A program made the position numbers and the translations under genes. Below, piece by piece: positions 1 through 20,340 of a stretch of DNA of 64,000 bases (positions within the stretch are counted from its first letter, which is position 1; each line of letters starts with the position of its first letter). Origin of the DNA: Candidatus Jettenia ecosi (GTDB lineage: Bacteria > Planctomycetota > Brocadiia > Brocadiales > Brocadiaceae); assembly GCA_005524015.1 (NCBI GenBank), contig SULG01000001.1:53263-117262 (forward strand), given 5' to 3'. Under the pieces are notes generated by a model, which saw only the letters and a list, made by a program, of their open reading frames with translations, searched no databases and was not told where the DNA came from.

Positions 1-396
1 CACTCTGCCTATCACCCGGTCAGCCCGTGCTGCGGCTTGAGCCGGTGATTCTCCTCCGGGACAGCCGTCACGGAAGACCAGCCAACCCGGGTGCCGGGCA
101 AGTATTTCGGCGGTGAGGCAACCTTCATATTCGCCGTAGTTCCATTCGACCAGGTCCTGATCGATCTCTGCCACGGCTCCGAAACCTGCTAGTTCACAAG
201 TCCGTGCAGCCCGCTGCAGCGGACTGGTAAACACCTTAGCAAAAGTTATTCCTTTTAGCCGTTCCCCAAGCCGGCGCGCATTCCGTTCGCCACGCTCGGT
301 CAACGGCAAATCGGTAAGGCCCGTATGCTGCCCCGTCAAGCTCCAGGCCGTTTCACCGTGCCTGGCGAGATAAATGACCGGAAGCTCTTCGCTCAT
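1..396 (-). CDS. Histidine phosphatase family protein (GpmB-like), 3' part outside window
   Basis: The reading frame starts with ATG at 396, behind a GGAGATATG-like leader, and is still open at base 1, giving 132 visible codons. The protein begins MSEELPVIYLARHGETAW. The RHGE phosphohistidine motif lies at about residues 12-15, followed by a histidine-phosphatase pattern with LTERGERNARRLGERL and FTSPLQRAARTCE, so it belongs to the phosphoglycerate mutase/acid phosphatase superfamily. The gene starts 20 bases after the phosphoketolase stop on the same strand, which suggests co-transcription. In a sugar-phosphate operon it may act on a sugar phosphate, but the substrate cannot be read from the sequence. 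The family call is firm; the specific role is unknown. Confidence 0.9.
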   Translation of the reverse strand, partial: MSEELPVIYLARHGETAWSLTGQHTGLTDLPLTERGERNARRLGERLKGITFAKVFTSPLQRAARTCELAGFGAVAEIDQDLVEWNYGEYEGCLTAEILARHPGWLVFRDGCPGGESPAQAAARADRVIGRV

Positions 397-416
397 GATT
401 TCATATCTCCTTCATC

Positions 417-2822
417 TTAATAGGGCCATTTCCACTGGTCGATTTCCGGCTTATCAATGCCGTGCTCATAGGCGTAGTTCTGGCACTCTATCTGCATATT
501 GCGCAGTTTCTCTTTGACGTGAGCGCCTGCCACGTGCAGCGCCGGTACACGATCGATGACGTCGATGGCCAAGCTAAATCGATCGATCTGGTTCTGGATG
601 GCCAGATCGAGCGGTGTATTGATGTTGCCTTTCTCTTTATAACCGCGCACATGCAGATTCTTGTGATTGGTGCGGCGGTAGGTAAGGCGATGAATCAGCC
701 ACGGATAGCCGTGAAAGTTAAAAATAATGGGTTTATCAACCGTGAACAGGCTGTCAAAGTCCTTGTCAGAGAGACCATGCGGGTGCTCGGTGGACGGGGT
801 GAGCTTAAACAGGTTTACCACATTGACAAAGCGTATCTTAAGGTTGGGAAAATGTTCGCGCAGGAGCACCACCGCAGCCAGCGCCTCTTTGGTGGGGATA
901 TCGCCCGCAGATGCCATCACCACATCGGGTTCTGAACCTTCATCGTTACTTGCTTTTTGCCACAAGCCGATGCCCTTGGTGCAGTGCGCTATGGCCTCGT
1001 CCATGGTCATGTATTGAAGATGTTTCTGCTTATCGCAGACGATGACGTTAATGTAGTCGGTACTCCTGAGGCAGTGATCGGCGACGCTGAGCAGACAGTT
1101 CACATCCGGCGGCAGGTAAATGCGGCACACATCCGGGCTTTTATTGCAGACCACATCCAAAAAACCCGGATCCTGGTGCGTGAAGCCGTTGTGGTCCTGG
1201 CGCCACACTGTCGAGGTGATAAGCAGATTGAGTGAAGACACAGGCGAACGCCACGACAACTGGCGGCAAATAGCAAGCCATTTTGCATGCTGGTTAAACA
1301 TCGAATCGATGACATGGACAAAGGCCTCGTAGGTGGAGAAAAATCCATGACGGCCCGAGAGCAGATATCCTTCCAGCCAGCCTTCCAGGGTGTGCTCTGA
1401 GAGCATTTCCAGAACACGGCCATCCGGCGCCAACTGCCCGCCATCTGCATCCTCCGGAAGATAACCGGCGAGCCACAACTTCTTACTGACTTCATAGATT
1501 GCATCGAGCCTGTTTGATGTATTTTCGTCAGGGCCGAAGACGCGGAAGTTTGTCATATTCTGACGCATGATATCACGCAGGAAGCAGCCAAGGGGCCGGG
1601 TATTCTCCGCCGTGCTTTGCCCCGGTTTGTCCACTTTGATAGCGTAGTTACGGAAGTCCGGTATACGCAGCGGCTTTCGCAGCAGGCCGCCGTTGGCGTG
1701 AGGATTTGCACTCATGCGACGGGTGCCTTTGGGCGCCAGCGCCTTCAATTCGGGTATCAGCCGTCCGCGTGCATCGAATAATTCTTCGGGCTTATAGCTG
1801 CGCATCCACTCTTCCAACTGTTTCAAATGAGCAGAGTTGTTGTGCATACCCGACAGTGGCACCTGATGGGCTCGCCAGAATCCTTCGACCTTGTGGCCGT
1901 CCACTTCTTTGGGACCCGTCCAGCCCTTGGGGCTGCGCAGCACAATCATAGGCCAGCGTGCCCTGTCCGGCTTGCCGCTGCTGCGTGCTTCTCGTTGAAT
2001 ACGACGGATTTCCAGAATGCAATCCTCCAGTGTCGCGGCCATCTTCTGATGCATCTCCTCAGGCTCGCTGCCTTCTACAAAATGAGGTGTCCAGCCGTAG
2101 CCCTTGAAGAGGTCTTCAAGCTCCTCATGTGAAATGCGGGCCAGCAGCGTGGGATTATTGATTTTGTAACCATTGAGGTGCAGGATGGGCAATACCGCGC
2201 CGTCTCGGATCGGATTAATATACTTGTTGGAATGCCACGAAGTTGCCAGAGGCCCTGTTTCCGATTCGCCATCGCCGACCACAACCGTTACCAGCAGGTC
2301 GGGATTGTCAAAAGCAGCACCAAAGGCATGTGAGACGCTGTAGCCCAGTTCGCCTCCCTCATGGATTGAACCCGGCGTTTCCGGCGTGCAATGGCTGCCG
2401 ATGCCGCCGGGAAAGGAAAACTCCTTGAAAAACTCATACATCCCTTCCTCGTCCTCTCCTTTGTTAGGATATACCTCCGAATACGTCCCTTCCAGATAAA
2501 CCGGCGCAAGGACGCCCGGAGCGCCGTGGCCGGGGCCAGCCAGGAAGATGGCATCAATATCATACTTGTTGATCAGGCGATTCAGATGAATGTAGCTGAA
2601 GCTCAAACCGGGACTGGCGCCCCAGTGCCCCAGCAGACGCTGCTTGATGTGTTCCGCTTTGAGCGGCTCACGCAGCAGCGGATTCGCCCGCAGATAAATC
2701 ATGCCCACCGCCAGATAATTGCAGGCACGCCAGTAAGCGTCTATCTTGAGAAGTTCTTCACGTGACAGCCTATCGGCAGTCCTTGTTGTCTTAGATTTCT
2801 CTTTGGTCACTGCAGTTGCCAT
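417..2822 (-). CDS. xfp: Xylulose-5-phosphate/fructose-6-phosphate phosphoketolase
   Basis: This thiamine-diphosphate enzyme cleaves xylulose 5-phosphate or fructose 6-phosphate with phosphate to give acetyl phosphate plus a triose or tetrose phosphate. The 801 residues match the usual family length. The N-terminal HWG segment (about 66-68), [12 protein letters not shown] (about 151-162) and the ThDP-binding [17 protein letters not shown] stretch (183-199) are all present, as is the C-terminal [11 protein letters not shown] region. The start is preceded by an AAAGGGGG ribosome site. The stop is followed 20 bases later by the histidine phosphatase gene. With acetate kinase in the same cluster, acetyl phosphate can be converted to acetate and ATP. 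GC content is well above that of the AT-rich DNA just upstream. Confidence 0.96.
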
Positions 2823-2882
2823 AATACCCCCTTTCTCTTTTGCGCTGTTTTTCCTTTTGATAGGTTACACCACGTCTATACA

Positions 2883-3239
2883 TTACTGAGGCGGCGGATA
2901 GTTTTCAAACCAGCCAAAAGTTCTTTTTACGGTCCATCGTTTCGGTAAGAATTTGATTTCTTGAGCATCGTCTGATCGTCTGCTTTTCCAGGTACCATCC
3001 CTTTCCCCGGTACTGAAATACTCATAAACAGTTTGCCATTTCGGAAAGTTATGAAGTAGAAATCTCCTTGAACATCCTGTCTTTAAAATATAAAAGTCGG
3101 ATTTGTTTGTGTTTTTATCTGTTTTGTCATAAGAGTATACAATGCAGCCATAAACTATGAGCAATATACTTGCCAAAGAGCAATATACTTGCCAAAAGAT
3201 TTTTCCAGGAAAACTTATCATAAGAATAAAATAGTACAT
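2883..3239 (-). pseudogene. Internally deleted IS5-family transposase remnant
   Basis: The 118-codon frame contains two separate pieces of an IS5-type transposase. One resembles the N-terminal domain (ILKTGC, NFPKWQTVYEYF, RDGTW). It is joined almost directly to a piece resembling the C-terminal end (FLPKRWTVKRTFGWFENY). The DDE catalytic core that should lie between them is missing, and the normal C-terminal tail after FGWF is also lost. The first 40 or so residues look like unrelated AT-rich sequence read through. This cannot be an active transposase. It may be a deletion derivative that was once mobilised in trans. I did not find clear terminal inverted repeats around it. Confidence 0.75.
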
Positions 3240-3574
3240 AACTATCAGATAATTAAAAACTTACAATAGGTGTTAATATATATTATTTATGAATAGTAGG
3301 TATTTTGTATTTTTGAGATAAGACAACTCACATTTTATGTATGAATACAAATACAACCGATTACATGTTATCTCTTAAGAGGCAGAAAATAAATTTTTAC
3401 GTCAAATTTTCTATGATCATAAAAGCATACAATAAGTAGAAAATTAACTACAGGCAGAGAGGGTAAATTCAGGGGAAAGAAGCATCTTATTAAAATTATT
3501 GTATCACGTTAATTCCTAAGCTAAACCACCCGCTTAGCGGGTGGTTTAGCTTAGGAATGAGAAAATATTTTTAA
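3240..3574. other. AT-rich non-coding stretch with one strong palindrome
   Basis: No supportable gene lies here. The base composition is very AT-rich compared with the phosphoketolase gene next to it. Its only recognisable structure is the perfect inverted repeat at 3512-3558, listed separately. It separates the transposase remnant from the radical-SAM fragment. Confidence 0.6.
3512..3558. repeat. Perfect 22-bp-arm palindrome (REP/IS200-type hairpin)
   Basis: The left arm runs from 3512 to 3533 and the right arm from 3537 to 3558. They are exact reverse complements around a TTA loop, with the inner motif CCACCCGC/GCGGGTGG. The same inner motif recurs at 6141-6159. There is no T-run after the stem on either side, so a simple intrinsic terminator is less likely than a REP-like or IS200/IS605 end hairpin, though it would still form a strong RNA stem. 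Confidence 0.8.
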
Positions 3575-3841
3575 TCCACGAAAGTTTTACTATGCTCCAT
3601 GCCTGATACAGTGCCTCAGTTCTCTGCGAAAACGTGGAGGTCTCAGGATCTGGCTATTTCTTCTATTGCTGGAAATATTCAACCGTACCACGAGGTATTC
3701 TTAGCCGATCTGATCCTTAAACGGAATACTCTCTTATCCTCAATTAAAGAGGCCATTGAAGGCTATCAGCCCGATATCGTAGGACTCAGTGCCATGATCT
3801 TTCAGTTTAATACAGATGTTTTAAAAAGGGGGGGCAAGTAG
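3575..3841 (+). pseudogene. N-terminal fragment of a B12-binding radical SAM protein
   Basis: The open frame runs from just after a TAA at 3572-3574 to a stop at 3839-3841. It reads KVLLCSMPDTVPQF, DLAISSIAGN, HEVFLADLILKR and PDIVGLSAMIFQF. These resemble the first 85 or so residues of the cobalamin-binding domain of B12-dependent radical SAM proteins. The CxxxCxxC radical SAM domain and everything after it are absent. The proper start codon is also missing; the ATG at 3599 falls inside the conserved MPDT segment. This is a truncated leftover rather than a gene. Confidence 0.65.
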
Positions 3842-3864
3842 TATGTTGTACTTTTGTGATAAGT

Positions 3865-5862
3865 TTATGCTTTAGATTTCTCCTGTTTCTTGTGATATTC
3901 TCCTGTTGGAAGAATAAGTATAACCTTAGTAAATTCTCCCTCTACACTATCAATGGTAAGTTTGCCATTATGATTAACAATAATATTGTAACTAATACTT
4001 AAACCTAACCCTGTTCCTTTACTCGTGGGTTTTGTGGTAAAAAATGGATCCATTGTTTTATCTCTTATATGAGCAGGAATACCGATGCCATGATCATAGA
4101 AAGTAATCTTTACATAAAGGTGTTCATTCATGGTTATTTTCTCACATGAGACTTCAAGGATTTTATTCTCATGTATTCCTGGATATTTTTGGTTCAGGGC
4201 GTATCGGGCATTACTGATAAAATTCATGAAGACTTGTTGAATCTCATGAGGATTTACATATATTTCCGGTAAATCTTTAGGTATATCCAACTTTACCTTG
4301 ATACCTTCTTGTCGCAATTGTGTCCCGGTAAGTATAAGGGTATCAGATAGTACTTCCTGTATATTGATTGTACTTCTTTCTTTTTTATCTCTATCCCGGG
4401 CGAAAGAAAGAAGTTTACTAACAATACTCGCTATGCGATCCCCTTCTCTGATAATTCGGCTGGCAAGGTCTTTTTCTCTGCTTCCTTCACTGTTTTTATT
4501 CAATAAAATCTGTGCACAATTAATAACACCGGTTATAGGATTATTGATTTCGTGTGCCACACCTGCCGCTAATTCACCTAAGAGTGCTAAATGCCTCGAT
4601 CGTTCTGCTTCCTTTTCCAAATTTATTTTTTCAGTAATATCTGAGAAAGAGCCTAATATACCAACACACTCACCATTCTCATTCTTTATAGGAACTTTAA
4701 CGGTATGAATAATTAATTTTTGTCCATTTCTCTTATATTCCTCTTCTATAGCCTCTATTTGTCCCGATTCCATAATCTTCCTGTCATCCGTTCTATATTT
4801 GTCAGCAAGTTCCTTAGGGAAAAAGTCATAATCTGTTTTTCCTATAACCTCTTCTGGCTTTCTATGTAAGTCCCTGGCGAAATGCTCATTACAGGCTATG
4901 TACACAGAATTTTTATCTTTGTAGAATATTCTTACAGGGAGATTATCAAGGAGAAACCGGTGCCTACGTTCACTTATACGCAGGTCTTTCTCTACTCTTG
5001 TACGCTCAATAATTTCCTGTTTCAGTTGCTCATTGAGCATTTTTAGTTCTGCAGTACGTGCTTCTACTAATTCCTCAAGATGTTTACGATATTTTTCTAA
5101 TTCTTCTTCTGCAAGTTTTTGCTGAGTAACGTTTAATCCATATAAATTGATATATGAAGTGCCGATCACTGGTACAATAGTAAAAGAGAATATTTGGTCT
5201 TTATACCTGACCTCAATATTCTCTTTTATTAATTTTGTATGAAAGGTATCAGCAACAATTTGATGTAAGAAATCAGGTGCAGATTGCCCAATCTTGCAAT
5301 TCCAATCTTGCAAAAGAGGCATACTGGACGGATTGGCATAGAGGATGGTACCATCTTGTGTAACACGAAGTAGCGGATGTGGGTTCTCATCAGAAAACTT
5401 AGCCACATCCCCAAGTTCCCTTTGCATTTGTTTCTGTTTAGTGATATCCTTCCAAACAGAAACACCTCCAACGATTGTACCATTGGGATTTCTGATTGAG
5501 CAGGCATTAACGAGTATTATAATCTTTTCTCCACCAGGTCTGCAAATAATCCACTCTTCATTTATTACCGCCTCACCATTGTTGATAACACGAGGAAGCG
5601 GTAACTCTTCAACCCTGGCAGGCGTGATACCGTCTGCATGCAGGATATTCAATTCTTTTACAGCATCTTTAAAAGAGATACCCTCAACAGTTTCTTGTGA
5701 TCGTTCAAGCAATTTCGCTCCATATTTACTAATTTTATAAATAGTAATATCTGATATATAAGCAACAACAATAGCGATAGAAATATTTTCTGTGACATAC
5801 CCCATAAGGGCATCAAGTATCCAGCGCCCGTCTTTTAATTTTTCGTTTATCTGTGCAATCAT
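3865..5862 (-). CDS. PAS-domain sensor histidine kinase
   Basis: The 665-residue protein has a hydrophobic stretch near residues 25-40, then several PAS-type sensory segments ending in DITKQKQ, NVTQQKLAEEE and SDITEKINLEKE. Between the second and third is a coiled-coil region (YRKHLEELVEARTAELKML). The kinase core has the H-box HEINNP (His at about 434), the N-box NFISNARYAL, the G1 box DHGIGI, the F box DPFFTTKP and the G2 box GTGLGLS, so it should autophosphorylate. No response regulator gene is adjacent, so it is an orphan kinase. It sits in AT-rich DNA between two GC-rich metabolic segments. The signal it senses is unknown. Confidence 0.92.
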   Translation of the reverse strand: MIAQINEKLKDGRWILDALMGYVTENISIAIVVAYISDITIYKISKYGAKLLERSQETVEGISFKDAVKELNILHADGITPARVEELPLPRVINNGEAVINEEWIICRPGGEKIIILVNACSIRNPNGTIVGGVSVWKDITKQKQMQRELGDVAKFSDENPHPLLRVTQDGTILYANPSSMPLLQDWNCKIGQSAPDFLHQIVADTFHTKLIKENIEVRYKDQIFSFTIVPVIGTSYINLYGLNVTQQKLAEEELEKYRKHLEELVEARTAELKMLNEQLKQEIIERTRVEKDLRISERRHRFLLDNLPVRIFYKDKNSVYIACNEHFARDLHRKPEEVIGKTDYDFFPKELADKYRTDDRKIMESGQIEAIEEEYKRNGQKLIIHTVKVPIKNENGECVGILGSFSDITEKINLEKEAERSRHLALLGELAAGVAHEINNPITGVINCAQILLNKNSEGSREKDLASRIIREGDRIASIVSKLLSFARDRDKKERSTINIQEVLSDTLILTGTQLRQEGIKVKLDIPKDLPEIYVNPHEIQQVFMNFISNARYALNQKYPGIHENKILEVSCEKITMNEHLYVKITFYDHGIGIPAHIRDKTMDPFFTTKPTSKGTGLGLSISYNIIVNHNGKLTIDSVEGEFTKVILILPTGEYHKKQEKSKA

Positions 5863-6007
5863 GTCTGCGCTGATTTGAGATAGTTTCTAAAAATAAAATA
5901 GGTAAAGTATCCTGAAGCAAAAGAAGTGCCATTAGATTTTTTGGAAGAGCAATTTTCTCGCAGGCTTTTCGTAAGAGTTATGTTTACTTGTTATTAATAC
6001 CTTCTGT

Positions 6008-6069
6008 ATACATAATCAATTTGAAATTGCCATACTGCATACATAATCAATTTGAAATTGCCATACTGC
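6008..6069. repeat. Two exact tandem copies of a 31-bp unit
   Basis: The unit begins ATACATAATCAATTTGAAAT. Copy one is 6008-6038 and copy two is 6039-6069, with no mismatches. Only two copies exist and there are no spacers, so this is a simple tandem duplication and not a CRISPR. Confidence 0.9.
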
Positions 6070-6093
6070 AGCCTGCTTTACATAATGTAAGTA

Positions 6094-6159
6094 ATCCCTT
6101 AAGGGATACCGGTAACAATGCCCTTATAGGGCTAATCAAGCCACCCGCTATGCGGGTGG
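6094..6159. repeat. Cluster of three palindromes (REP-like)
   Basis: The cluster holds ATCCCTTAAGGGAT at 6094-6107, GCCCTTATAGGGC at 6120-6132, and CCACCCGC-TAT-GCGGGTGG at 6141-6159. The third shares its stem with the palindrome at 3512-3558. Three hairpins in a row are typical of a dispersed repeat rather than one terminator. Confidence 0.75.
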
Positions 6160-6346
6160 TACTGACTTTTAACGTCAAATAAAAATTTAGATTACATATT
6201 CATTTTCATTTACATTCACAAACAAATAATTTGCAATCGTTAATGAAAGCTGTAAAATAAAAAATATTGATACTATAGGGCTTTTCCTCATACTTTTGAG
6301 GGAGATACGGTTCTCAATAGCCATGATACTGGAGAAAGGAGGACAC

Positions 6347-8422
6347 ATGGCGCACGCTGATACAACGAGTCGGAGTTCACCTCTCGGCGCAACTGTTCGC
6401 GAAGACGGCGTCAACTTCAGCGTTTTTTCCCGTAACGCTACAGGCATGGAACTGGTGTTCTTTGACCGCGAAGACGACAAAAAGCCGGCTCGCATTATTC
6501 AAATTGATCCCTGGTCCAGCCGCACCTATCATTACTGGCATGTCTTCGTGCCAGGCGTTCTGGCCGGACAACTTTACGGATATCGGGCACGCGGACCGTA
6601 CAAACCTGACAGGGGGATGAGATTCGATCCCGCCAAAGTTCTTCTCGATCCCTATGGCCGCGGTGTTGTTGTTCCCGGGAATTACAGCCGGGAAGTTGCA
6701 AGCAAAGCAGGCGATAATACCGCTGTGGCAATGAAAAGTGTGGTGGTGGATACCGGAAAGTATGATTGGCAAGGAGACGTCCCGCTGAAACGGCCATCAG
6801 CGCGTACGATTATTTACGAGATGCATGTGCGGGGCTTTACCCGCCATCCCAGTTCCGGCGTCTCCGAAAAGACACGAGGCACTTACGCCGGTTTGATTGA
6901 GAAGATTCCGTATCTTCAGGAACTCGGTGTTACTGCGGTCGAATTACTCCCGGTTTTCCAGTTCGATGCACAGGATTGCCCGCCGGGACTTGTCAACTAC
7001 TGGGGCTATGCGCCAATATCTTTCTTTGCTCCGCATCAGGCATACAGCTCACGTCGTTATCCGCTTGGTCCGGCAGATGAATTTCGCGATATGGTCAAGG
7101 CGTTGCACCGTGCAGACATTGAGGTCATTCTCGATGTCGTGTTCAATCATACCGCTGAAGGCGACCAATCCGGGCCAACGCTGAGTTTCCGTGGATTGGA
7201 CAACGGCATATACTACGTCCTCGAACACGATTGCTCTCACTACGCCAATTACAGCGGCACGGGAAACACCCTCAACGCGAATCATCCTATCGTGCGCCGC
7301 ATGATTGTGGATAGTCTCCGCTATTGGGTCGGGGAGATGCACGTAGACGGTTTCCGCTTTGACCTTGCATCGATCCTTGCACGCGACGTGTCAGGGAACC
7401 TGATGCCAAACCCTCCGGTGCTCTGGGATATTGAGTCGGATCCGGTTCTTGCAGGTACAAAGCTCATCGCCGAGGCATGGGATGCTGCCGGCTTATATCA
7501 GGTGGGCAGTTTTGTTGGAGATAGCTGGAAAGAGTGGAATGGACGATTTCGTGATGATGTGCGCAGCTTTTTCCTCGGACAGGATGGTTTCCTGAAGCGT
7601 TTTGCTGACCGGCTGGTGGGGAGTCCCCAAATATATGGTCATGAGAACCGCGAGGCGGAACAAAGTATCAACTTTGTGACCTGTCACGATGGTTTTACGC
7701 TCAATGACCTCGTCTCTTATAACAACAAACACAACGAAGCCAACGGCGAAGACAATCATGACGGCTCGAACGACAACCTAAGCTGGAACTGCGGCGTCGA
7801 GGGACCGTCGGATGATCCGGCAGTGGAACAACTGCGGAACCGGCAGATAAAAAACTTTTTGACGGTTACGATGATATCGCTCGGCGTGCCCATGATTCTC
7901 ATGGGCGACGAAGTGCGGCGTACCCAGAATGGCAATAATAACGCCTATTGCTTAGACAACGATACCAGTTGGTTCGACTGGACGCTGGTTACAAAACATG
8001 CCGGTCTGCACCGGTTTGTGAAATTACTTATTGCACGAAGGCGACTGCGGGACATGGATCACGAACACCGGCGCTTAAGCCTGAACCAACTGATCAGTGA
8101 GGCCAACAAGGCATGGCACGGCACGAAACTTGGTCAGCCTGACTGGGGGAATCATTCGCACAGCGTGGCATTCACTGCAGAGATAAAAAAAGAAAAGCTG
8201 TTCTTCCATATAATCATGAACGCATACTGGGAACCTCTCGACTTCGAACTGCCGCCGGCAGAGAACGGGGAAAAGAACCCCTGGCGTCGATCGATAGACA
8301 CTTCCCTCGATTCTCCAAATGATATCTCTGAATGGGAGATATCTCCACCGGTTCCAAATCATTCCTATCGGGTTGCATCACGCTCTGTGGTCGTGCTATG
8401 GAGAAATTCATCCAACGGCTAA
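6347..8422 (+). CDS. glgX: Glycogen debranching enzyme (isoamylase-type)
   Basis: The start is set at ATG 6347 because AAAGGAGG lies just upstream; the frame is open further back but has no better site. The 691-residue product has an N-terminal isoamylase beta-sandwich (LGATVREDGVNFSVFS) and a GH13 barrel. All four conserved regions are seen: DVVFNHT (about 263), GFRFDLAS with the nucleophile Asp (about 335), EAWD with the acid/base Glu (about 376) and VTCHDGF (about 446). The GEDNHDGSNDNLSWNCG segment is characteristic of GlgX. It removes alpha-1,6 branches from phosphorylase-limited glycogen in the cytoplasm. It converges on the acetate kinase gene, with 9 bases between the stops. Its GC-rich composition matches the sugar-phosphate genes around it. 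Confidence 0.95.
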   Translation: MAHADTTSRSSPLGATVREDGVNFSVFSRNATGMELVFFDREDDKKPARIIQIDPWSSRTYHYWHVFVPGVLAGQLYGYRARGPYKPDRGMRFDPAKVLLDPYGRGVVVPGNYSREVASKAGDNTAVAMKSVVVDTGKYDWQGDVPLKRPSARTIIYEMHVRGFTRHPSSGVSEKTRGTYAGLIEKIPYLQELGVTAVELLPVFQFDAQDCPPGLVNYWGYAPISFFAPHQAYSSRRYPLGPADEFRDMVKALHRADIEVILDVVFNHTAEGDQSGPTLSFRGLDNGIYYVLEHDCSHYANYSGTGNTLNANHPIVRRMIVDSLRYWVGEMHVDGFRFDLASILARDVSGNLMPNPPVLWDIESDPVLAGTKLIAEAWDAAGLYQVGSFVGDSWKEWNGRFRDDVRSFFLGQDGFLKRFADRLVGSPQIYGHENREAEQSINFVTCHDGFTLNDLVSYNNKHNEANGEDNHDGSNDNLSWNCGVEGPSDDPAVEQLRNRQIKNFLTVTMISLGVPMILMGDEVRRTQNGNNNAYCLDNDTSWFDWTLVTKHAGLHRFVKLLIARRRLRDMDHEHRRLSLNQLISEANKAWHGTKLGQPDWGNHSHSVAFTAEIKKEKLFFHIIMNAYWEPLDFELPPAENGEKNPWRRSIDTSLDSPNDISEWEISPPVPNHSYRVASRSVVVLWRNSSNG

Positions 8423-8431
8423 CGTGATGTA

Positions 8432-10117
8432 TTATCTCCTCAACGCCCGCAACGCCTCGCGCGCCATCATCCGTTCTTCATCGGTCGGCACGACCAGCAC
8501 CGTCACCTTCGAGTCGTTCGTCGAGACGCGGCATACTTCATCGAACCCGCGTGCGTCGCGGTTGTGTTGTTCATCGAGACGGATGCCCATGTAATCCAAT
8601 CCCTGCAAGGAGAGCAAGCGCACCATGGCGCTGCCTTGTCCAACGCCTCCGGTAAAGACCACGACATCCAGTCCGCCCATAGCAGCTATGTATGCGCCGA
8701 TGTATTTGCGTATGCGATAGCAGTAAGCCTTCAGCGCTACCATCGCGCGCGCCTCGCCGGCTTCGGCGGCCCTGAGGATTTCACGCATGTCGCTGGAAAT
8801 ACCCGACAACCCGAGCAGGCCGCTTTTCTTATTGATCAGCTCATCAACCTGCTGGACAGTAAGACCCGCTGTCCGTTCGAGGAAGGTGATCACGCCCGCA
8901 TCCACGTCGCCGCAGCGCGTCCCCATAATCAGCCCCTCAACCGGCGTGAATCCCATCGTGGTGTCCACCGAGCGTCCATGGTCAACGGCGCATAACGAAG
9001 AACCATTGCCGAGATGACAGCTTACGATTTCGAGTTCATTCGTCCTCCGCCCGAGGAATTGCGCCGCACGGAGGCAGACGTACGAGTGCGACATGCCGTG
9101 AAAACCGTACCGGCGCACGCCTTGCTTTTCATAAAACTCGTACGGCAGTCCGTACAGGTAGGCATACGACGGTAACGTGTGATGAAAAGCGGTATCGAAC
9201 ACCGCCACATGCGGCACGGCTGGTAACAGCCCGCGCATCTCGCGGATGCCGGCGATATTGACAGGATTGTGTAATGGAGCGAGCGGACTCAACGCATCGA
9301 GCTGCGTGAGCACGTCGTCCGTGATAAGCGTTGCTTCAGTGAATCGCTCGCCGCCGTGCACCACACGATGTGCAACAACGCTAACTTCCGGTTCGCCCCG
9401 CAACGCCTCCACCATCGCCGCCAGCGCCCCGGCAAATCCGGACCCTGGCAACTCGCGTTTGACTTCACCCTTTGACCCGCGATGAACATGGCATGTACCT
9501 TCCAGCCCGATTCGCTCGACCTGGCCGCGTACGTGCCGGCCTTCATCTTCGGTATCGTAGAAGGTGTATTTCAGCGAAGATGAACCGCAGTTGACCACGA
9601 GAATGTGTTCCGGTCGTTCTCCCTTGAGCTTAAAGCCGTAGGGATCATCGCCTTGCCGGAGGGCAGCGGCTGATTTCGCCGGGTCGGCAGCCAGTATCCT
9701 GGACCGCCCGGAAATTGTCCGTGAAATGTGCTGCATGGCCTGTGGTTCGGCAACGATGATCGACTGAAACACCGAGACTGGGATGAGCAACACCTCGCAC
9801 CGCGTCTCGGCGATGAGTTCTGCCTGAGTCTTCTCGCCCGTCGTCAACGCCAGCTCGCCAAATGTGCTTCCCGCTTCGAGCCGTCCCAACTCTAGCCGTG
9901 TACCACCGTCGGCAATCACCGACACCATTACCATACCGGTCAGGATCACGCCGAAGTGCGTAGCCTCTGTGCCGTAATGCACGATGGACTCGTTCGGTTC
10001 GAACGATACGATGCGAGAGCTGTTCGCGAGTTTATCCAGCAGTTCCTCTGAAAATTTGGCAAACAACGGGATGTCGGATTTAAGCTGACGGACTATTTCT
10101 TGCTTGGTTTTGATCAT
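8432..10117 (-). CDS. ackA: Acetate kinase with N-terminal cyclic-nucleotide-binding-like domain
   Basis: Residues 10-130 form a Crp-like cyclic-nucleotide-binding fold (LFAKFSEELLDKLA, ESIVHYGTEATHFGVILTG, FGELALTTG). In the phosphate-binding cassette the conserved Arg of the R-[ST]-A motif appears as Thr97 followed by Gln98-Ala99, so classical cAMP binding is doubtful. From about residue 170 an acetate kinase begins: VVNCGSSSLKY, AHRVVHGGERF, FDTAFHHT, RYGFHGMSH, HLGNGSS, GTRCGDVD and FTGGVGQ. Normal acetate kinases are about 400 residues, so the extra N-terminal 165 residues are a true fusion. It makes ATP and acetate from acetyl phosphate. The start lies 2 bases after the LOG gene stop, so the two form one operon. 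Confidence 0.94.
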   Translation of the reverse strand: MIKTKQEIVRQLKSDIPLFAKFSEELLDKLANSSRIVSFEPNESIVHYGTEATHFGVILTGMVMVSVIADGGTRLELGRLEAGSTFGELALTTGEKTQAELIAETRCEVLLIPVSVFQSIIVAEPQAMQHISRTISGRSRILAADPAKSAAALRQGDDPYGFKLKGERPEHILVVNCGSSSLKYTFYDTEDEGRHVRGQVERIGLEGTCHVHRGSKGEVKRELPGSGFAGALAAMVEALRGEPEVSVVAHRVVHGGERFTEATLITDDVLTQLDALSPLAPLHNPVNIAGIREMRGLLPAVPHVAVFDTAFHHTLPSYAYLYGLPYEFYEKQGVRRYGFHGMSHSYVCLRAAQFLGRRTNELEIVSCHLGNGSSLCAVDHGRSVDTTMGFTPVEGLIMGTRCGDVDAGVITFLERTAGLTVQQVDELINKKSGLLGLSGISSDMREILRAAEAGEARAMVALKAYCYRIRKYIGAYIAAMGGLDVVVFTGGVGQGSAMVRLLSLQGLDYMGIRLDEQHNRDARGFDEVCRVSTNDSKVTVLVVPTDEERMMAREALRALRR

Positions 10118-10119
10118 GA

Positions 10120-10869
10120 CTATACCTGTTCAGATATAGATTTCATATCACCACGGTGTCCAGACAGCCAAATCTGGTGGTGCTCGCGTATGAGTGCGAC
10201 TGCTTCATCGGCATTTGTCACGCAGTGCGGAATTGTTATATCCTCGGCGTTAGCCAAAGGGGGGTCGGAAGAGAGCATAGAATTGCGCGCCCACTCGATA
10301 AGGCCCGGCCACATTTTTCCTACGAGAATCAGAGGTGTGTTCCCAAGGTGATGTACCTGCAGTAACTGCCAAATCATCATAGTTTCCAGTACCGTTCCGA
10401 TTCCCCCCGGCGCAACGATGAAAGCGTCGGAGGTAAGCACGAACTGGTGCAGACGCGTAAAAAAGGTCCGATGCTCGAACGCCTGAGTAACAAATGCATT
10501 GACTTCCTGTTCAAAGGGTAAATCAACCCGGATTCCAACGGACCGGGCACGTTCCGGAGAGGTAGCCGTTCCTTCGTTGGCGGCTTGCATCAGCCCCGGA
10601 CCGCCGCCGGTGATAATATCGCAGCCCATCTTGGCCAGTGCGGCGGCAGCACGCTTGGTCTCCTCGTAACCGAACGTTCCCACCTTCGCCCGCGCTGAGC
10701 CGAAGATCGTCACACGGTAGCGGTCACGCCGGGATGGCCTGAGCCGGGTAAGATTATTGACGACATCCCAAAGGCCAAGTACTGAATTCACGAGAACTTG
10801 CTTCACCCCTTCCTCATCGGCCAGGCTGACTACATCCGTTTTTTGCTTCATTGAATCATTCGTGCTCAT
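10120..10869 (-). CDS. LOG/TIGR00730-family nucleotide 5'-monophosphate phosphoribohydrolase
   Basis: The start is placed at ATG 10869, which has GGAG seven bases upstream; the frame extends 14 codons further without a site. The 249-residue Rossmann-type protein has GSARAK, the GGGPGLMQAANEG loop and PGGIGTVLETMMIW, matching the PGGxGTxxE signature of this family, often mislabelled lysine decarboxylase. Family members hydrolyse nucleoside 5'-monophosphates to base plus ribose 5-phosphate. It is upstream of and nearly touching acetate kinase. Ribose 5-phosphate could feed the RpiB and transketolase encoded next door, but that is inference. Confidence 0.9.
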   Translation of the reverse strand: MSTNDSMKQKTDVVSLADEEGVKQVLVNSVLGLWDVVNNLTRLRPSRRDRYRVTIFGSARAKVGTFGYEETKRAAAALAKMGCDIITGGGPGLMQAANEGTATSPERARSVGIRVDLPFEQEVNAFVTQAFEHRTFFTRLHQFVLTSDAFIVAPGGIGTVLETMMIWQLLQVHHLGNTPLILVGKMWPGLIEWARNSMLSSDPPLANAEDITIPHCVTNADEAVALIREHHQIWLSGHRGDMKSISEQV

Positions 10870-11100
10870 CGTTCTGCTCCTTAAGTAATACCCAGACCGG
10901 ACACATACCAAATGTACCCGGCAATTATTAACTCCTCTTTCATATCATAAAGGGTTTTGTAGTGGCAAGGCGCGCCTTGCCACTACTGAATCGCTTTGAA
11001 ATCCTATATATTTAAATTAAGCTGCCTTTGGCAGCGACTTTTTGAATATACGGAAAATATCGGTTAAAAATAACCTCCTGACCCTCTTTACTAACAGAGA

Positions 11101-11172
11101 CAACCCCCTAGCCCCCTTTCTTAAGGGGGATTTCTTCAAGTCCCCCTTAAGAAAGGGGGATTCAGGGGGTTG
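11101..11172. repeat. Nested inverted repeat, CCCCCTTT family, copy 1
   Basis: The outer arms are CAACCCCCT (11101-11109) and AGGGGGTTG (11164-11172). Inside are two hairpin halves, 11112-11129 and 11142-11159, that are reverse complements of each other. A related element lies at 38288-38462. Confidence 0.85.
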
Positions 11173-11267
11173 TTTCGTATGCTATGATACAAACTTTGAA
11201 ATTCCTAAACATTAAAATATGCCTTCGGCAACTTTGTTTGCAGCAACACGTAGGGGCGAATGGAAAT

Positions 11268-11302
11268 GAACACTGTCAGGGTTCTCAACCCTGACAGTGT
11301 TC
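11268..11302. repeat. Perfect palindrome with 16-bp arms
   Basis: The arm GAACACTGTCAGGGTT (11268-11283) is followed by CTC and its exact reverse complement (11287-11302). No T-run follows on either side, so a dispersed repeat is preferred over a terminator. Confidence 0.8.
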
Positions 11303-11538
11303 TGTGATTTCAATAAACTTTGAAATTCTTATACATTAAACTAATCCTTTGGCGACTTGTATTTGAAATTCCTTAACATCATGTTAGTTCCTTTTACCAA
11401 AAGGGGAAACAGGGGGTTGTATTTTTTCTTTCAATAAGAATTACTTACAACTTCCTCACCGCATAGTTTATTCTCATGAGAATTTTTTACTCGTACTATC
11501 CTGAAATCCGCATAAATAAAATTCCTTATATGATCGGG

Positions 11539-14500
11539 CTACGACATCAGCGCCGCAGTAATGGCTTTTTGCAGCGTAGTCAGGCCAGCGCCGACGTCCG
11601 CTTCAAGATGAACCCGTAAGACGCGGCGGTTCCGTTCTGCCAGTACCTGGAAATCACCCCGTGCCTGGGCTGCCTTGACGATGCCAAATGTGTACTTTTG
11701 TCCCGGCACAGGCAGATCAATAGCGTCATTGCACGTGATTTGCAGGAAAACGCCCGTATTCGGCCCGCCTTTATATACCTGTCCTGTCGAGTGCAGGAAG
11801 CGAGGTCCAAATTGCAGACATGTGGCTACGCGCATGGTATCGCGAACTAAGTGGCGTATCGCCTGCAACTTGCGCTCATGCGCCTCGTTCATCTCTATAT
11901 AGGCGAGAAGCGCAAAATAGTCGCCTGCGCTAAGCCGGTTTAGATGCGCCTTGAGATACCCAGCCAGCGTCGGATTATCGTTCACCATCTTCGCTAATGC
12001 ACCTGCATTCTTCTCATCCGTGAATAGTTTAATTCCCTCCCCTGTGAAGATCGGTATCTCTTCGGGCAACGTCCCATTTCTTTCATACTCGGCGGTCAAC
12101 TTCCTCGTAGAGGCCTTGCTTGCTTCCACATCCGGTTGATCAAACGGATTAATGCCGAGGATGGAACCGGCCACTGCGGTGGCGATCTCCCATCGGAAGA
12201 ACTCCTCGCCAAGATTGTAAGGATCGTCTACCACAATGTGCACGACCGGGAGACCGGCGTGTTCCAAATCTTCAATGAATCTGTCCTGTGCGGCATCTGG
12301 TGCCGACAGCAATCTCAAATAGACAAAAATGCGGTCGCGGTCATAAACATCAGGTTTGCCGGGCGACTCGCGATCGATCGGAATCAATCCCTTGCCCTCT
12401 TTGCCCGTTGACCCGGCAACCATCTGCTCCAGCCAGGCACCAAGATCGTAAATGCCCGGCGAAGTAATGATCGTCACCTTGTCGCGGCCGAATTGGTTCG
12501 CAGCTACACCGAGGATGGTGCCGAGTATGACACCCGGGTTTTCCTCAACCGGAACCGACGGCATGCAGGCATAGACCATCTCCTCGGTCCTATCCAGAAA
12601 CTTCGCCACATCCACTCCCATGATAGCTGCAGGGACCAGCCCGAAATCGGAAAGCGCCGAGTAACGTCCGCCGATATTCGCCCAGCCGAAGAAGACGTGC
12701 CGAAATCCATCGATTTCTGCAACCTGTTGCATCTTTGAGCCGGGATCGGTGATGGTGATGAAGCGACGGCCGGCTTCTTTCATGCCAACGAGCTGCATGA
12801 CGCGGTCGAAGAAATACTGCTTAAAAATGTTGGGTTCAAGGGTCGATCCCGATTTGCTCGAGACAATGAAGAGCGTGTTTTTCAGATCAATTTTGTTCTC
12901 AAAAGTCTTCACCTGCGCCGGGTCGGTGGAATCGAGAACGTGAAGTTCCGGAAAACCACGGATCGTACCGAAGGTCGTCTTCATCACTTCAGGACAGAGG
13001 CTTGATCCCCCCATACCCAGCAACAGGACATGCGAGAACCTTGCACTCTTTGCCACTTCGGTAATACGGGCTAGGCGTTGGATGTGGGCTAATTGGCCGT
13101 TAGGGATGCCGAGCCATCCGAGCCACTGCGCCTCATCCCTGCCAGTCCACAGCGATGCATCCCGGCCCCAGAGTCTTCTGACTTTCCCCTGTGCATGCCA
13201 CTCTGCCAACGATGCTTTCACCGCATCAGCAAGGGGATCTGGTAGTTTATAAGTCAGCCGATTGATTTTTCCCTCTCCCGCTTCCTTGCTTTGTTTTTTC
13301 ACCGCCTTCAGCAGCTTATCGAAGGCATCAGAGAAGAGCTGCACGCCTTCAGCAAGCAACTTGTCGGTCACGTCTTTCATGGAGATTCCGACTTCCGCGA
13401 GCATACGCATCGTGTCACAGGCAGAATCGACGTCTTCCGTAAGACTTGCGCGCGGCCGCCCGTGGTTGCGAAACGCCCCGAAGGTAGCAGGAGGAATCGT
13501 GGTAACGGTATCAGGCCCGATCAGTTCTTCTACATATGCGACGTCACGATAGCTGGGATTCTTTGTACTCGTGCTGGCCCATAACAAGCGCTGTGCCTGT
13601 GCACCCTGGCCCGCCAGTTCCTGCCAGCGCCGGTCGCTGAAGAGTTCCTGATACCGCTGGTAGACGAGCTTGGCGTTGGCGATTGCCACCTTGCCGGTAA
13701 GGCCGCGCAGGAGGTTTTGCTCTCTTGCATTTGTCGTTACCTGCAATCGTGCCGTGATAAGCCCGTCGATAGCGCTATCGATTCGGCTGATAAAGAAACT
13801 GGCAACGCTGGCTACTCGCTCCAGGTCGCCGCCGCGGGTGGCAAATTTCTCCAGCCCCGCAATGTACGCTTCCGCCACCTGCTCGTAAGCTTCCTGCGCA
13901 AAGAGCAGCGTCACATTGACATTGATGCCCTCGCTGATGAGTTGATGGATGGCGGGAATGCCCTGTTGCGTGGCCGGAATTTTGATCATCAGATTATCGC
14001 GCCCCACTGTTTGCCATAATCGCCGCGCTTCATCCATCGTACCCGCCGTATCGTGCGCGAGGAATGGCGAGACCTCAAGACAAACGTACCCGTCGCGTTT
14101 CAAAGTCTCCTCGTACACGGGGCGGAGCGCATCGGCAGCGTGTTGAATATCGCTGACCGCGAGGTTCTCATAGAGTGTCTTCGCATCCAGCGCCCGCGTT
14201 TCCGGCGATTCGAGAATCTCCTTGTAGTCTGAACTTCCGGCGACGGCTTTTTCGAAAATCGCCGGATGAGAGGTCACGCCTCGCAGGCCGTCTTCATCAA
14301 TCAGGCGGTGCAACTCACCGCTGGTGATCAAGCTGCGGCGTATGTAATCAAGCCACACCGACTGGCCGAAGACCTGTAGCGCGCGCAACCGGTTCTCCAT
14401 CGCTGTCATCTTGGCGAGCCGGCGCAGATGACGCCCTTCGCCCGTGAAGCTTGCATTTAAAAACGCGCGTATCAGCTCGCGGGCGAGTTCAATGCCGACG

Positions 14501-14829
14501 ACACGGCCTCCGAGCACCAGCACGTTCATGCCATCATGCTCTACGCCCTGGTGTGCCGAGTAGGTGTCATGGCACAGCCCTGCGCGAATGCCGGGAATCC
14601 TATTTGCGGCCATCGATGCTCCAACGCCGCTGCCGCAAAGGATGATGCCGCGTTCGGCCCGGCGTTCGCGCAGGGCTGTGCCGACGGCTTCGGCGTAGTC
14701 GGGATAGTCTACGGGATCCTTGCTGTAGGTGCCTACATCGAGGACGTCGCGGTTCTCCTCGATCAAAAAGGCTTTCACCGCCTCCTTCAACTCGAATCCG
14801 GCATGATCTGAACCTATTACGATGCGCAT
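11539..14829 (-). CDS. Trifunctional fusion: ribose-5-phosphate isomerase B - transaldolase - glucose-6-phosphate isomerase
   Basis: Residues 1-145 are RpiB: GSDHAG at 6-11, [15 protein letters not shown] with Cys65, and CHDTYSA. Residues 147-505 are transaldolase: [13 protein letters not shown], the Schiff-base Lys283 in MIKIPAT, and NVNVTLLFA. The usual GVTSNP reads GVTSHP (His188). Residues from about 535 to 1096 are glucose-6-phosphate isomerase: [31 protein letters not shown] and the [13 protein letters not shown]-terminus. Transaldolase-PGI fusions are known; the extra RpiB module is unusual. It would interconvert ribose/ribulose 5-phosphate, shuffle pentose, tetrose and hexose phosphates, and link fructose 6-phosphate to glucose 6-phosphate. 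It starts 3 bases after the transketolase stop. No stop or frameshift separates the modules. Confidence 0.94.
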
Positions 14830-14832
14830 AGA

Positions 14833-16899
14833 TTACCTCACTTTAGCAATCTGTTCCCTGGCTGCTACGATGATGTTCTCGGGAATAAAGCCGAACTTCT
14901 TCTGCAGTTCTTTCAGCGGCGCCGACGCCCCGAAAGTCTCCATGCCGATGCTATGGCCGCCGATGCCGACATAGCGTGTCCAGCCGAGGGTGGATGCTTT
15001 CTCAACCGAGACGCGCGCAGTGACAGCCTGAGGCAGAACCTGTTCGCGATAGTCAGGACGTTCGCGACAGTAACGTTCGAAGATTTCCCATGACGGCATG
15101 CTCACCACCCGGGCCTTGATACCATCGGCCTTGAGTTTTTCATATGTCTCTATACAAAGCGAGACTTCGCTGCCAGTCGCGAGCAATAACACCTCGGGTT
15201 TGCCGTCATCAGCGTCTGCAAGAATATACGCTCCGCGTCGTACGCCTTCTGCACCGGCGTATTTCGTGCGGTTCAAGGTTGGCAGCGCTTGCCGTGTTAA
15301 AATTAGTACCACCGGCTCATGGCGGAACTGCATGATAACACGCCAGGCTTCGACTGCCTCATTGGCATCCGCCGGCCGCAGGGTGACTAATCCGGGGATA
15401 GCGCGCAGGGACGCTAACTGTTCCACCGGCTGGTGTGTTGGCCCGTCTTCTCCCACTCCGATCGAATCATGCGTAAAAATATGGATTACCGGTAATTCCA
15501 TGAGCGCACTCAAACGAATGGCTGGTCGGGCATAGTCGCTGAAGATCAGGAATCCTGATCCATAGGGTCGAATCTTAGACAGTGATAGCCCGTTAAGAAT
15601 AGCGGCCATGGCGTGTTCCCGGATACCAAAATGGAGATTCCGTCCGGCGGGATTCCCTGCGCTGAAATCCCCGGCTCCTTCAAAGGTCAGGCGCGTCTTG
15701 CACGAAGGTCCGAGATCCGCCGAACCGCCAAGCAGCCAGGGTAGGTTCCTGGCAAGCGCGTTCAGTGTCTGGCCTGAAGCGTCCCGGGTTGCAATACCTT
15801 TACTGTCCGCAGGAAAAACCGGTAATCCCTTATCCCAGCCTTCCGCCAGCTCGCGGCGCTGCATGCGATATGCATGGTCGGCGAGTTCGGGGTACTGGCG
15901 TTTATATGCCTCAAACTTAGTCCACCAGGCGTCACGCAGCGCCCGCCCGCGTGCGTTGATGCCTGCCTGGAAAAGCTCGCGCACCCCTTCGGGGACGAGG
16001 AACTCAGCATCTTCCGGCCAGCCGTAATGACGCTTGGCTAGCTTAATTTCTTCCTTGCCCAACGGTTCACCATGAGCCGCGCACGTATCCTGTTTGTGCG
16101 GCGCGCCGTAGGCGATGTGGCTGTCAACAATAATCAGGGTTGGTCGATCGGTCGTATTTTTAAATGTTGTAAAGGCACGCTCAAGCATCTCCAAATCGTT
16201 GGCGTCGCCCACCCGTGTGACGTTCCAGCCGTAACCGATAAAGCGCGTGGCCACGTCATCGCTGTAAGCCAGCGCCGTGTTTCCTTCGATAGTGATGTGG
16301 TTGTTGTCGTAGATCCAACAGAGGTTGGCGAGTTTGAGGTGTCCTGCCAATGATGCGGCCTCTCCGGAGATCCCTTCCATCATGCAGCCGTCGCCGCACA
16401 GGGCGTAAATGTTATAGTCGAAAAGGTCGAACCCCGGGCGATTGAAGTAGCTCGCCAACCAGCGTTCGGCGATGGCCATGCCGACACTCGTTGCCACCCC
16501 CTGTCCTAATGGACCAGACGTCGTCTCAACACCCGAAGTCCATCGGTATTCAGGGTGGCCTGGGCATTTGCTGTCAATCTGCCGAAAGCGCTTGATATCC
16601 TCCAGCGTTACGGATAAATGTCCGGGCGTTTCGTATTCGGGATTGACCGCTTTTACCCCGGTCAGGTGCAGCATGGCATAGAGCAGCATAGAGGCATGTC
16701 CCACCGACAACACGAAGCGGTCGCGGTTGGGCCAGATTGGATGGCCAGGATCGAAGCGTAAAAAACGTTGCCACAGACAATAAACCACCGGCGCCAGCGC
16801 CATCGGCGTTCCCGGGTGACCGGAATTTGCCTGTTGCACGGCATCCATCGCCAGAGTGCGGATGGTGTTCACGCATAATTCGTCCATTGTGTTGTTCAT
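14833..16899 (-). CDS. tkt: Transketolase
   Basis: This 688-residue thiamine-diphosphate enzyme is of standard length. Visible motifs are NSGHPGTPMALAPV, GPLGQGVATSVGMAIAE, the ThDP/metal motif GDGCMMEGISGEA, NHITIEG, HFGIREHAM and the catalytic-Glu region DSIGVGEDGPTHQPVEQL, followed by ATGSEVSL near the C-terminus. It moves two-carbon units between ketose and aldose phosphates. With the RpiB-TAL-PGI fusion 3 bases downstream it makes up the reversible pentose-phosphate branch. It is probably the first gene of that transcript. The start ATG is preceded by GAGAGG about 11 bases upstream. It marks the upstream edge of the GC-rich block. Confidence 0.96.
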   Translation of the reverse strand: MNNTMDELCVNTIRTLAMDAVQQANSGHPGTPMALAPVVYCLWQRFLRFDPGHPIWPNRDRFVLSVGHASMLLYAMLHLTGVKAVNPEYETPGHLSVTLEDIKRFRQIDSKCPGHPEYRWTSGVETTSGPLGQGVATSVGMAIAERWLASYFNRPGFDLFDYNIYALCGDGCMMEGISGEAASLAGHLKLANLCWIYDNNHITIEGNTALAYSDDVATRFIGYGWNVTRVGDANDLEMLERAFTTFKNTTDRPTLIIVDSHIAYGAPHKQDTCAAHGEPLGKEEIKLAKRHYGWPEDAEFLVPEGVRELFQAGINARGRALRDAWWTKFEAYKRQYPELADHAYRMQRRELAEGWDKGLPVFPADSKGIATRDASGQTLNALARNLPWLLGGSADLGPSCKTRLTFEGAGDFSAGNPAGRNLHFGIREHAMAAILNGLSLSKIRPYGSGFLIFSDYARPAIRLSALMELPVIHIFTHDSIGVGEDGPTHQPVEQLASLRAIPGLVTLRPADANEAVEAWRVIMQFRHEPVVLILTRQALPTLNRTKYAGAEGVRRGAYILADADDGKPEVLLLATGSEVSLCIETYEKLKADGIKARVVSMPSWEIFERYCRERPDYREQVLPQAVTARVSVEKASTLGWTRYVGIGGHSIGMETFGASAPLKELQKKFGFIPENIIVAAREQIAKVR

Positions 16900-17091: not shown

Positions 17092-17777
17092 TCAGCAGAT
17101 TTGTTTCATGAGTCGTACCGCAGTATTTTGAGACCGGCGTTGAAATATTTTTCGATTAACAGGAATCTGCTCTCCGCTGATATTATCCGGATAACCTCCG
17201 CCCGAATATTTTTCGTGATGGTACTTAATTACATCGTAACTACTCAAAATAAGGTGTAAAATTAAATCTGCAAATCATAAAACCTTTGCACTTTCCCATA
17301 AACAAGGCAAACACAAGGTTTGCCCCTCCTATAACCCAACAGTATTTTGAGTAACTACATTACATCAATGCTGTCATGCAGCCATGAAGAACGTCCTGCA
17401 ATTTCGACTCCCTGGTTTACATGGGTCTGCATAACCTTGAACTCAAATTTATCAAGACGTGCAGGCTTCAGCAGAATGTTGTCTGGTATGCCGACCTTGC
17501 CAACATCATGGAGAAATGAACCTTTTATGAGGGATCTCATTTCAGATGCGTTCAGTCCCACAGTTTCACCAATGCGGGCAGCGTAGAGGGTTACCCGGTA
17601 ATTATGGGCATCGGTATCGCTGTCACGCCTGGCAATGGCACTGCCAGGCACCGAGATGGTTTCGGGATTTGCATCGAGAAGGTTTGTAGAATAGTCAGCA
17701 AGCCGACGCATGAGATGGATGATAACCGGATAGAGGAGGGCGGTGACAAGGAAAACAATAGCGACAACGATAATCAT
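17092..17777 (-). pseudogene. HD-GYP phosphodiesterase gene interrupted by a MITE
   Basis: The upstream part (17777 to 17359) encodes a membrane anchor, RRDSDTDAHNYRVTLYAARIG and FLHDVGKVGIPDNILLKP, then stops in the inserted element with SIDVM. Beyond the element, the same strand reads KYHHEKYSGGGYPDNISGE, the HD-GYP signature with HHE and GYP. Removing the 123-bp insertion and one 8-bp duplicate joins the two in frame as HDSIDVIKYHHEKYS. The C-terminus is also lost: after IPVNRKIF the frame becomes unrelated and ends at 17092. The intact ancestor would have degraded cyclic di-GMP. The present gene is not expected to work. Confidence 0.88.
17236..17358. mobile_element. 123-bp MITE with 8-bp target-site duplication
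   Basis: The ends read GTAACTACTCAAAATA inward from 17236 and GTAGTTACTCAAAATA inward from 17358 on the other strand, an imperfect 16-bp terminal inverted repeat. The element is flanked by exact ATTACATC copies at 17228-17235 and 17359-17366. It has no gene. The 8-bp duplication and GTAA-type ends would fit mobilisation by an IS66-like transposase, which is an inference. It interrupts the HD-GYP gene. Confidence 0.88.
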
Positions 17778-20177: not shown

Positions 20178-20340
20178 TTGTGAAACTTTTCAGATTTCAT
20201 GCTTCGGATTTTGTCTCTCCCGGCTCGTTCGGGTTAGGTGTTAAAAAAATAGGAAGATTGGGAGAAGAGGAGAAAATAACGATGTGCTTTTTGTTGTCAT
20301 ATTCTTAACAATACGGTAAACAGTAAGAAAGGAGTTAACG

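Follow-up and report, generated by a model that had tools for sequence, protein, structure and literature searches.

A 64,000-nucleotide stretch of contig 1 of Candidatus Jettenia ecosi (positions 53,263-117,262, hereafter the window) was found to hold the right half of a 40-kb gene island. Judging from its genes we hold, with more conviction than doubt, that this island is foreign and encodes a redox-neutral module that would convert glycogen to acetate and ATP and be active at low ATP. The island is real and was very probably transferred. Its likely use is to supply ATP in an emergency, once ATP has run low, a function that appears well supported by gene context.

The enzymes of the module on the minus strand of the window are the phosphoketolase XFP (417..2822, 801 aa; NF003617, 1576 bits against a cut-off of 1143), an acetate kinase fused to a cyclic nucleotide monophosphate (cNMP)-binding-type domain (8432..10117, 561 aa; PF00027 and PF00871; TIGR00016, 469 bits, cut-off 293), a LOG-family protein and possible nucleotide phosphoribohydrolase (10120..10911; PF03641 above cut-off), a fusion of RpiB, transaldolase (TAL) and PGI (11539..14829, 1096 aa; TIGR01120, 163 bits, cut-off 139; NF007080, 1441 bits, cut-off 712) and the transketolase Tkt (14833..16899; TIGR00232, 800 bits, cut-off 682). 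The glycogen debranching enzyme GlgX is encoded on the plus strand (6296..8422; TIGR02100, 721 bits, cut-off 641). A preliminary description of the window had placed tkt, the RpiB-TAL-PGI fusion, the LOG gene, ackA, xfp and a phosphatase gene on one strand with glgX opposite, and all were found where it put them. The block it drew at 1..16899 consists of real genes but extends about 18.5 kb further left of the window edge, and its ackA does encode an acetate kinase but one that also carries the N-terminal PF00027 domain. Beyond the left edge of the window the same strand continues with further genes: GlgP, a full-length PGI, a class II aldolase (FBA), a protein of the MBL/beta-CASP type and an HlyD-NodT-RbbA-permease exporter are encoded, with PGI, GlgP and FBA matching above curated cut-offs. 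Ribulose-phosphate epimerase (Rpe), glycogen phosphorylase and phosphoglucomutase, listed earlier as missing, indeed lie outside the window but have genes or candidate genes in the genome: GlgP adjoins the window, Rpe is on contig 13, and contigs 21, 73 and 6 carry three genes of the PGM/PMM family as candidates for an enzyme acting on glucose phosphate. Fructose bisphosphatase and a complete Embden-Meyerhof-Parnas (EMP) pathway are reported for J. ecosi (PMC6828613). Contig 2 encodes a further TAL-PGI, 43% identical and aligning without the RpiB portion, of which each of the two other Jettenia genomes has a counterpart. The frames of XFP, AckA, RpiB-TAL-PGI, Tkt, GlgX, GlgP, PGI and FBA are all uninterrupted in J. 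ecosi.

With aldolase and a bisphosphatase, phosphoketolase converts one fructose 6-phosphate to three acetyl phosphates in a redox-neutral manner. In the proposed route GlgP and GlgX would release glucose 1-phosphate from glycogen, which phosphoglucomutase and PGI would take through glucose 6-phosphate to fructose 6-phosphate. XFP would then form acetyl phosphate by splitting fructose 6-phosphate and xylulose 5-phosphate, with transaldolase, transketolase, RpiB, Rpe, aldolase and fructose bisphosphatase recycling the remainder, and acetate kinase would yield acetate and ATP, stoichiometrically up to three ATP per glucosyl unit. No electron acceptor would be needed. XFP is predicted to be closed by high ATP and opened by low ATP, and acetate kinase may use its cNMP-type domain as the sensor of a second, non-canonical ligand. 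The presence of LOG and RpiB in one block suggests that LOG may feed ribose 5-phosphate from AMP into the same route. The LOG motif PGGIGTVLE was present in all five block copies examined.

The predicted ATP control was read from XFP itself, which has the XFP_N, XFP and XFP_C domains and passes the subfamily cut-off. From residue 707 it contains, in all eight residues, the motif PWX2HX3YRX7HXRX31R that has been tied to ATP inhibition of phosphoketolase (PMC10365998). Each of the 7 blocks tested, that of the window being one, has an XFP with the complete motif, as do 111 of the best 120 homologues, a count that likewise includes the window XFP. The motif arose in 0 of 2000 shuffles.

Evidence that glycogen breakdown is tied to acetate kinase was also obtained from another genome of the anammox family, G017. 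One of its contigs carries XFP-MBL-RpiB-TAL-PGI-LOG-HisPhos-GlgP-PGI and no fused kinase; another (L214:3315-11657) carries GlgP-GlgX-Pta-AckA beside RbbA-permease genes, a cluster that apparently stands in for the fused kinase. Identity of this cluster to the window's proteins is 45% for AckA, 46% for GlgP and 66% for GlgX, that is, the genes are of other lineages. As the G017 cluster is unrelated to that of the window, glycogen breakdown has apparently been tied to acetate kinase twice, and this double linkage is the strongest of the present arguments for the proposed function.

The fused acetate kinase is the second putative point of control. Its acetokinase domain scores above cut-off and has the conserved active-site residues. 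The version found in relatives, with a length of about 765 aa, consists of the cNMP-binding-type domain, acetate kinase and the phosphotransacylase PduL; the three Pfam domains were present in all of the best 120 of 7996 scored homologues, and the protein is frequent in metagenomes. Out of 23 kinase and PduL positions inspected, 20 were fixed in 46 aligned rows. The first domain passes as a cyclic nucleotide-binding (CNB) fold by sequence, with matches to PF00027, CRP and PKA. The arginine of the phosphate-binding cassette of cAMP/cGMP-binding domains (column 97) was present in 0/46 rows, and column 100 was D or E in 46/46; in a pattern check of 118 sequences read of the best 120 homologues, arginine stood at this place in none and one position earlier in 4. 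Since the arginine is missing and an acidic residue is fixed, a canonical cyclic-nucleotide ligand is improbable, and the domain is probably a CNB domain without its canonical ligand. The three-domain combination of sensor, kinase and phosphotransacylase would make a control point of acetyl phosphate. For the three-domain protein of Brocadia pituitae, a structure predicted from the 46-row alignment had a mean predicted local distance difference test score (pLDDT) of 59.6 and a predicted template modeling score (pTM) of 0.48 and was not used. The names given to homologues among the best 120 listed, where there are any, do not go beyond acetate kinase or acetate/propionate family kinase. A search of the open-licence literature returned no study of the three-domain kinase and none joining acetate kinase, cyclic nucleotide-binding and phosphoketolase or phosphotransacylase.

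PduL also bears on what the module is for. In relatives the fused PduL would give acetyl phosphate a second exit, to acetyl-CoA, and the module could accordingly serve mainly in carbon-conserving supply of acetyl-CoA rather than of ATP. PduL is kept in 6/7 fused copies of the family, both of its His pairs are fixed in all 45 aligned rows that have it, and G017 has Pta, all of which would fit such a role. In J. ecosi, however, this exit is gone: the site of the deleted domain (8423..8434, minus strand) has a stop codon with a short relic, running directly into glgX, and the genome yielded neither a PduL nor a Pta, the PduL (PTAC) domain not being found in the window either, while the other genes of the module are kept. 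The ATP exit is thus the sole one left, as neither enzyme was found, and we regard a main role in acetyl-CoA supply as doubtful.

The boundaries of the island were defined by alignment of contig 1 to the two other Jettenia genomes searched (G001 and G002). Both have an empty site, in which homology stops on the left at -18,550/-18,517, outside the window, and resumes after roughly 0.2 kb of other sequence at 21,473/21,478, the right junction. Codon usage was compared between the 17 island open reading frames (ORFs) of at least 200 aa and 209 ORFs from 19 contig starts. The GC content at third codon positions (GC3) was 0.51-0.68 in 13 of the 17, namely GlgP, PGI, FBA, XFP, GlgX, AckA, LOG, RpiB-TAL-PGI, Tkt, HlyD, NodT, RbbA and the permease, compared to 0.361 +/- 0.051 in the genome sample. 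Eleven of these exceed all 209 sampled ORFs, NodT being reached by 1 and FBA by 2. The per-gene comparison called for in the preliminary description thus came out as it had anticipated, with XFP, GlgX, AckA, LOG, RpiB-TAL-PGI and Tkt each above the entire sample; the overall GC of the genes it named is likewise higher (0.52-0.58 against a mean of 0.40 in the sampled ORFs). Its GC-rich stretch holds for these genes but is broken at 3.0-6.0 kb (GC 0.33-0.37) by an IS5-type fragment and a PAS kinase gene.

The distribution of the block was followed through 33 genomes of the anammox family. Eight of these have full-length XFP (G000, G009, G017, G020, G022, G024, G029 and G031), with a fragment in a ninth (G011), and acetate kinase (matches at E 1e-60 or better, from an examination of 59 genomes that included the 33) was found in the identical eight, which share much of one block and so are not eight independent cases. 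The earlier proposal to look for the same block elsewhere was thereby answered, copies being met in other anammox-family genomes. The proteins of the J. ecosi and G009 blocks are 81-96% identical (median 85.7%, n=13), at 86% identity in RpoB and a distant placement on the RpoB tree. Jettenia sp. CY-1 has full-length XFP and RpiB-TAL-PGI at 96% and 93% identity. A second, broken XFP was also observed in the AMX3 genome (L043, L045, L046; G059/G031 contig 1), as was an XFP fragment in G009 (L123, contig 3).

A 40-kb J. ecosi fragment, JETT_0044-JETT_0074, is already in print and was read there as a loss in J. caeni (PMC6828613). It is very likely the present island, given the same genome, size and FBA/PGI/AckA content; phosphoketolase has 0 mentions in the main text of that paper. 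According to the published reading, inferred from collinear flanks (PMC6828613), the block would be ancestral in Jettenia and Brocadia and lost in J. caeni and many others, with no need for recent transfer. The fused acetate kinase, which forms one anammox clade at 100% support in the Shimodaira-Hasegawa-like approximate likelihood ratio test (SH-aLRT; 49 rows used), is in keeping with this, as is the block-adjacent HD gene common to J. ecosi and Brocadia pituitae. Against it stand the atypical codon usage of the island and the finding of neither XFP nor AckA in Jettenia's RpoB sister genus g4 (G005, G012) or in both other Jettenia searched. Block identity also exceeds the genome background, for which medians were taken over reciprocal best hits at >= 60% identity, the 15/28 lower ones being dropped as doubtful orthologues: the G009 median of 85.7% compares with 75.8% (13/28 sampled hits), and for G020 a block median of 87.1% (n=9, including XFP at 72% and MBL at 49%) compares with 78.9% (13/28). 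The RpiB-TAL-PGI tree furthermore pairs G009 with G022, in conflict with RpoB, which sets G009 far off; anammox rows in this tree are mixed with unlabelled, possibly anammox proteins, and this pairing alone was used. Finally, XFP has two origins. Those of J. ecosi, Jettenia CY-1 and G009 nest among non-anammox proteins, apart from the five Brocadia-block XFPs (72% identity), and the two anammox groups were united in 0/200 bootstrap trees; the outside rows were 19 picked from the 120 closest to the window XFP plus two planctomycete loci. Taken together, ancestry followed by loss is unlikely, and we read the island as an acquisition with exchange among anammox bacteria and gene replacement, to which loss in some lineages may have contributed. 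The transfer suggested in the preliminary description is upheld by codon usage, by the empty site in both other Jettenia and by the separate origin of XFP. The search for a donor through homologues of XFP, RpiB-TAL-PGI and the fused kinase returned mostly unnamed metagenome proteins among the listed matches, and no donor could be named.

Several observations weigh against a foreign, functional glycogen module. Four of the 17 island ORFs are less atypical or not atypical (the MBL gene and two left-end genes at GC3 0.48-0.50, the histidine kinase at 0.29), the right 4.5 kb of the island has a GC of 0.40-0.44, and two genes beyond the island, one in the flank at -23,036 and the DUF3604 gene at 22,691, reach GC3 0.57-0.58. 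With two outside genes equally high, GC is a weaker argument for transfer than had been claimed, atypical as the island genes are, and high GC3 alone is no island marker because the GC-rich DUF3604/rotamase/HupE region lies outside. No integrase was found among the ORFs scanned, small ORFs being covered in part, and the island ends have no tRNA and no shared 14-mer or direct repeat. The element hence has the atypical codon usage and the empty site of a genomic island and not the integrase, tRNA target and end repeats of an integrative element. Repeats at 17300-17361 and 20944-21213 were considered as end markers and rejected, as they occur in many copies across Jettenia genomes, including the sample from this one, in and out of the island. 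The XFP motif predicts ATP inhibition, yet it is common in homologues, so the ATP gate would be a family trait and not an invention of the island. The AMP feed through LOG is a guess and a weak lead, because LOG misses the NCBIfam cut-off (TIGR00730, 70.7 bits against 96). The first domain of the fused kinase is not always kept, as two planctomycete loci match from the kinase onward without it and in Brocadia carolinensis the initial 51 residues lie in a different frame. Outside the anammox family XFP adjoins the fused kinase in just 2/13 loci, with a partial LOG between them in one and a PPK2 neighbor in one (some contigs were short, L011 was left out and the screen was run without an ORF filter); other neighbors of the fused kinase there were pyruvate kinase, lactate dehydrogenase, serine deaminase and pyruvate formate-lyase, which would indicate general acetate fermentation. 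Transketolase is interrupted, a remnant or not found in 6/7 fetched blocks, all but that of J. ecosi. Local decay is seen in J. ecosi as well, where PduL is deleted, the HD gene broken and an insert of about 3 kb placed between glgX and xfp. That the island now serves no purpose and is a passenger in decay, as this deletion, this broken gene and the IS5 fragment and host-type kinase gene of the insert might suggest, is nevertheless quite improbable, given the intact frames of the eight enzymes listed above and the full-length XFP and RpiB-TAL-PGI of Jettenia sp. CY-1.

The remaining features of the island were recorded as follows. A histidine phosphatase cut by the window edge (1..396, minus strand; PF00300, E 7e-36) has an open frame of 204 aa in the genome. 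Between the divergent glgX and xfp lie, on the minus strand, the IS5-type transposase fragment (2883..3239; NF033580, 34 bits, under the cut-off of 110) and the PAS sensor histidine kinase (3865..5862; Pfam PAS/HisKA/HATPase), which has host-like codons. The distance between the glgX and xfp open frames is about 3.4 kb in J. ecosi and 0.2 kb in G009. This insert may have changed how the xfp operon is controlled. The remains of the HD-domain gene (17355..18060, minus strand) are frames of 140 aa and 93 aa with an HD match in the first alone, and a 446-aa version adjoins the same block in Brocadia pituitae. Ysc84-like and chalcone-isomerase-like genes occupy the right end of the island (19620-20907). 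The exporter (L003:2910-9860) accompanies the block in 6/7 fetched copies and was not found in the G020 stretch. The MBL/beta-CASP protein (L003:9929-11320) is just 49-53% identical to its counterparts in four other blocks and seems, like XFP, to have been replaced by another lineage. Beyond the island, the GC-rich DUF3604, rotamase and HupE/UreJ-like genes at 22691-26711 are mostly collinear in G002; in G001 there was no long match before 26639.

Anammox bacteria are regarded as nitrite-dependent autotrophs. A bolder reading, which we consider less likely than not, is that they exchange a natural non-oxidative glycolysis island, gated by ATP at its phosphoketolase, which would turn glycogen and, through LOG and RpiB, the ribose of AMP entirely into acetate and ATP with no electron acceptor. 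A second control would lie in a new class of sensor enzyme, with cNMP-type domain, acetate kinase and phosphotransacylase on one chain, for a ligand other than a cyclic nucleotide. The island itself is in part already in print, as the 40-kb difference in gene content (PMC6828613). Patchily distributed and transferred, it would let some anammox bacteria live off glycogen without nitrite, and could account for uneven starvation survival among them, which is testable as acetate release from stored glycogen.

Among known systems, all eight motif residues of the ATP-sensitive phosphoketolase of Synechococcus elongatus are present in the window XFP; that enzyme brakes the Calvin cycle in a phototroph (PMC10365998), whereas here XFP sits with glycogen breakdown and acetate kinase. 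The C-terminal domain of the relatives' fused kinase corresponds to the phosphotransacylase PduL (PDB 5cuo/5cup), from which it differs in following acetate kinase and a cNMP-type domain on a single chain, and it is lost in J. ecosi.

The bifid-shunt-like route to acetate and ATP put forward in the preliminary description is backed by gene content, by the co-occurrence of XFP and AckA in 8/33 family genomes and by the second cluster in G017, although aldolase shifts it. The bifid shunt is the fructose 6-phosphate phosphoketolase pathway of Bifidobacterium and replaces aldolase-based glycolysis. Its gene set (XFP, Tal, Tkt, Rpi, Rpe, AckA) is entirely encoded here, and XFP, transaldolase, transketolase, ribose-phosphate isomerase and acetate kinase would lead to acetate and ATP in the same way. 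Unlike in Bifidobacterium, the genes lie on an island of an anammox autotroph together with glycogen phosphorylase, debranching enzyme and class II aldolase, and no lactate dehydrogenase was seen in the block. Non-oxidative glycolysis, reportedly due to Bogorad in 2013, likewise combines XFP, aldolase, transaldolase/transketolase and isomerases to form acetyl phosphate without a redox step. It has been termed synthetic (PMC10365998), whereas the present genes form a natural block, with the epimerase elsewhere in the genome and the bisphosphatase as given in PMC6828613. Of its gene set, to which fructose bisphosphatase and TPI also belong, XFP, FBA, Tal/Tkt and Rpi/Rpe were found, fructose bisphosphatase and the EMP pathway being taken as reported (PMC6828613). 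Replacement of aldolase, as in the bifid shunt, is not seen, given the class II aldolase in the block and the complete EMP pathway of the same report. Because of this aldolase, the predicted route is nearer to non-oxidative glycolysis than to a strict bifid shunt.

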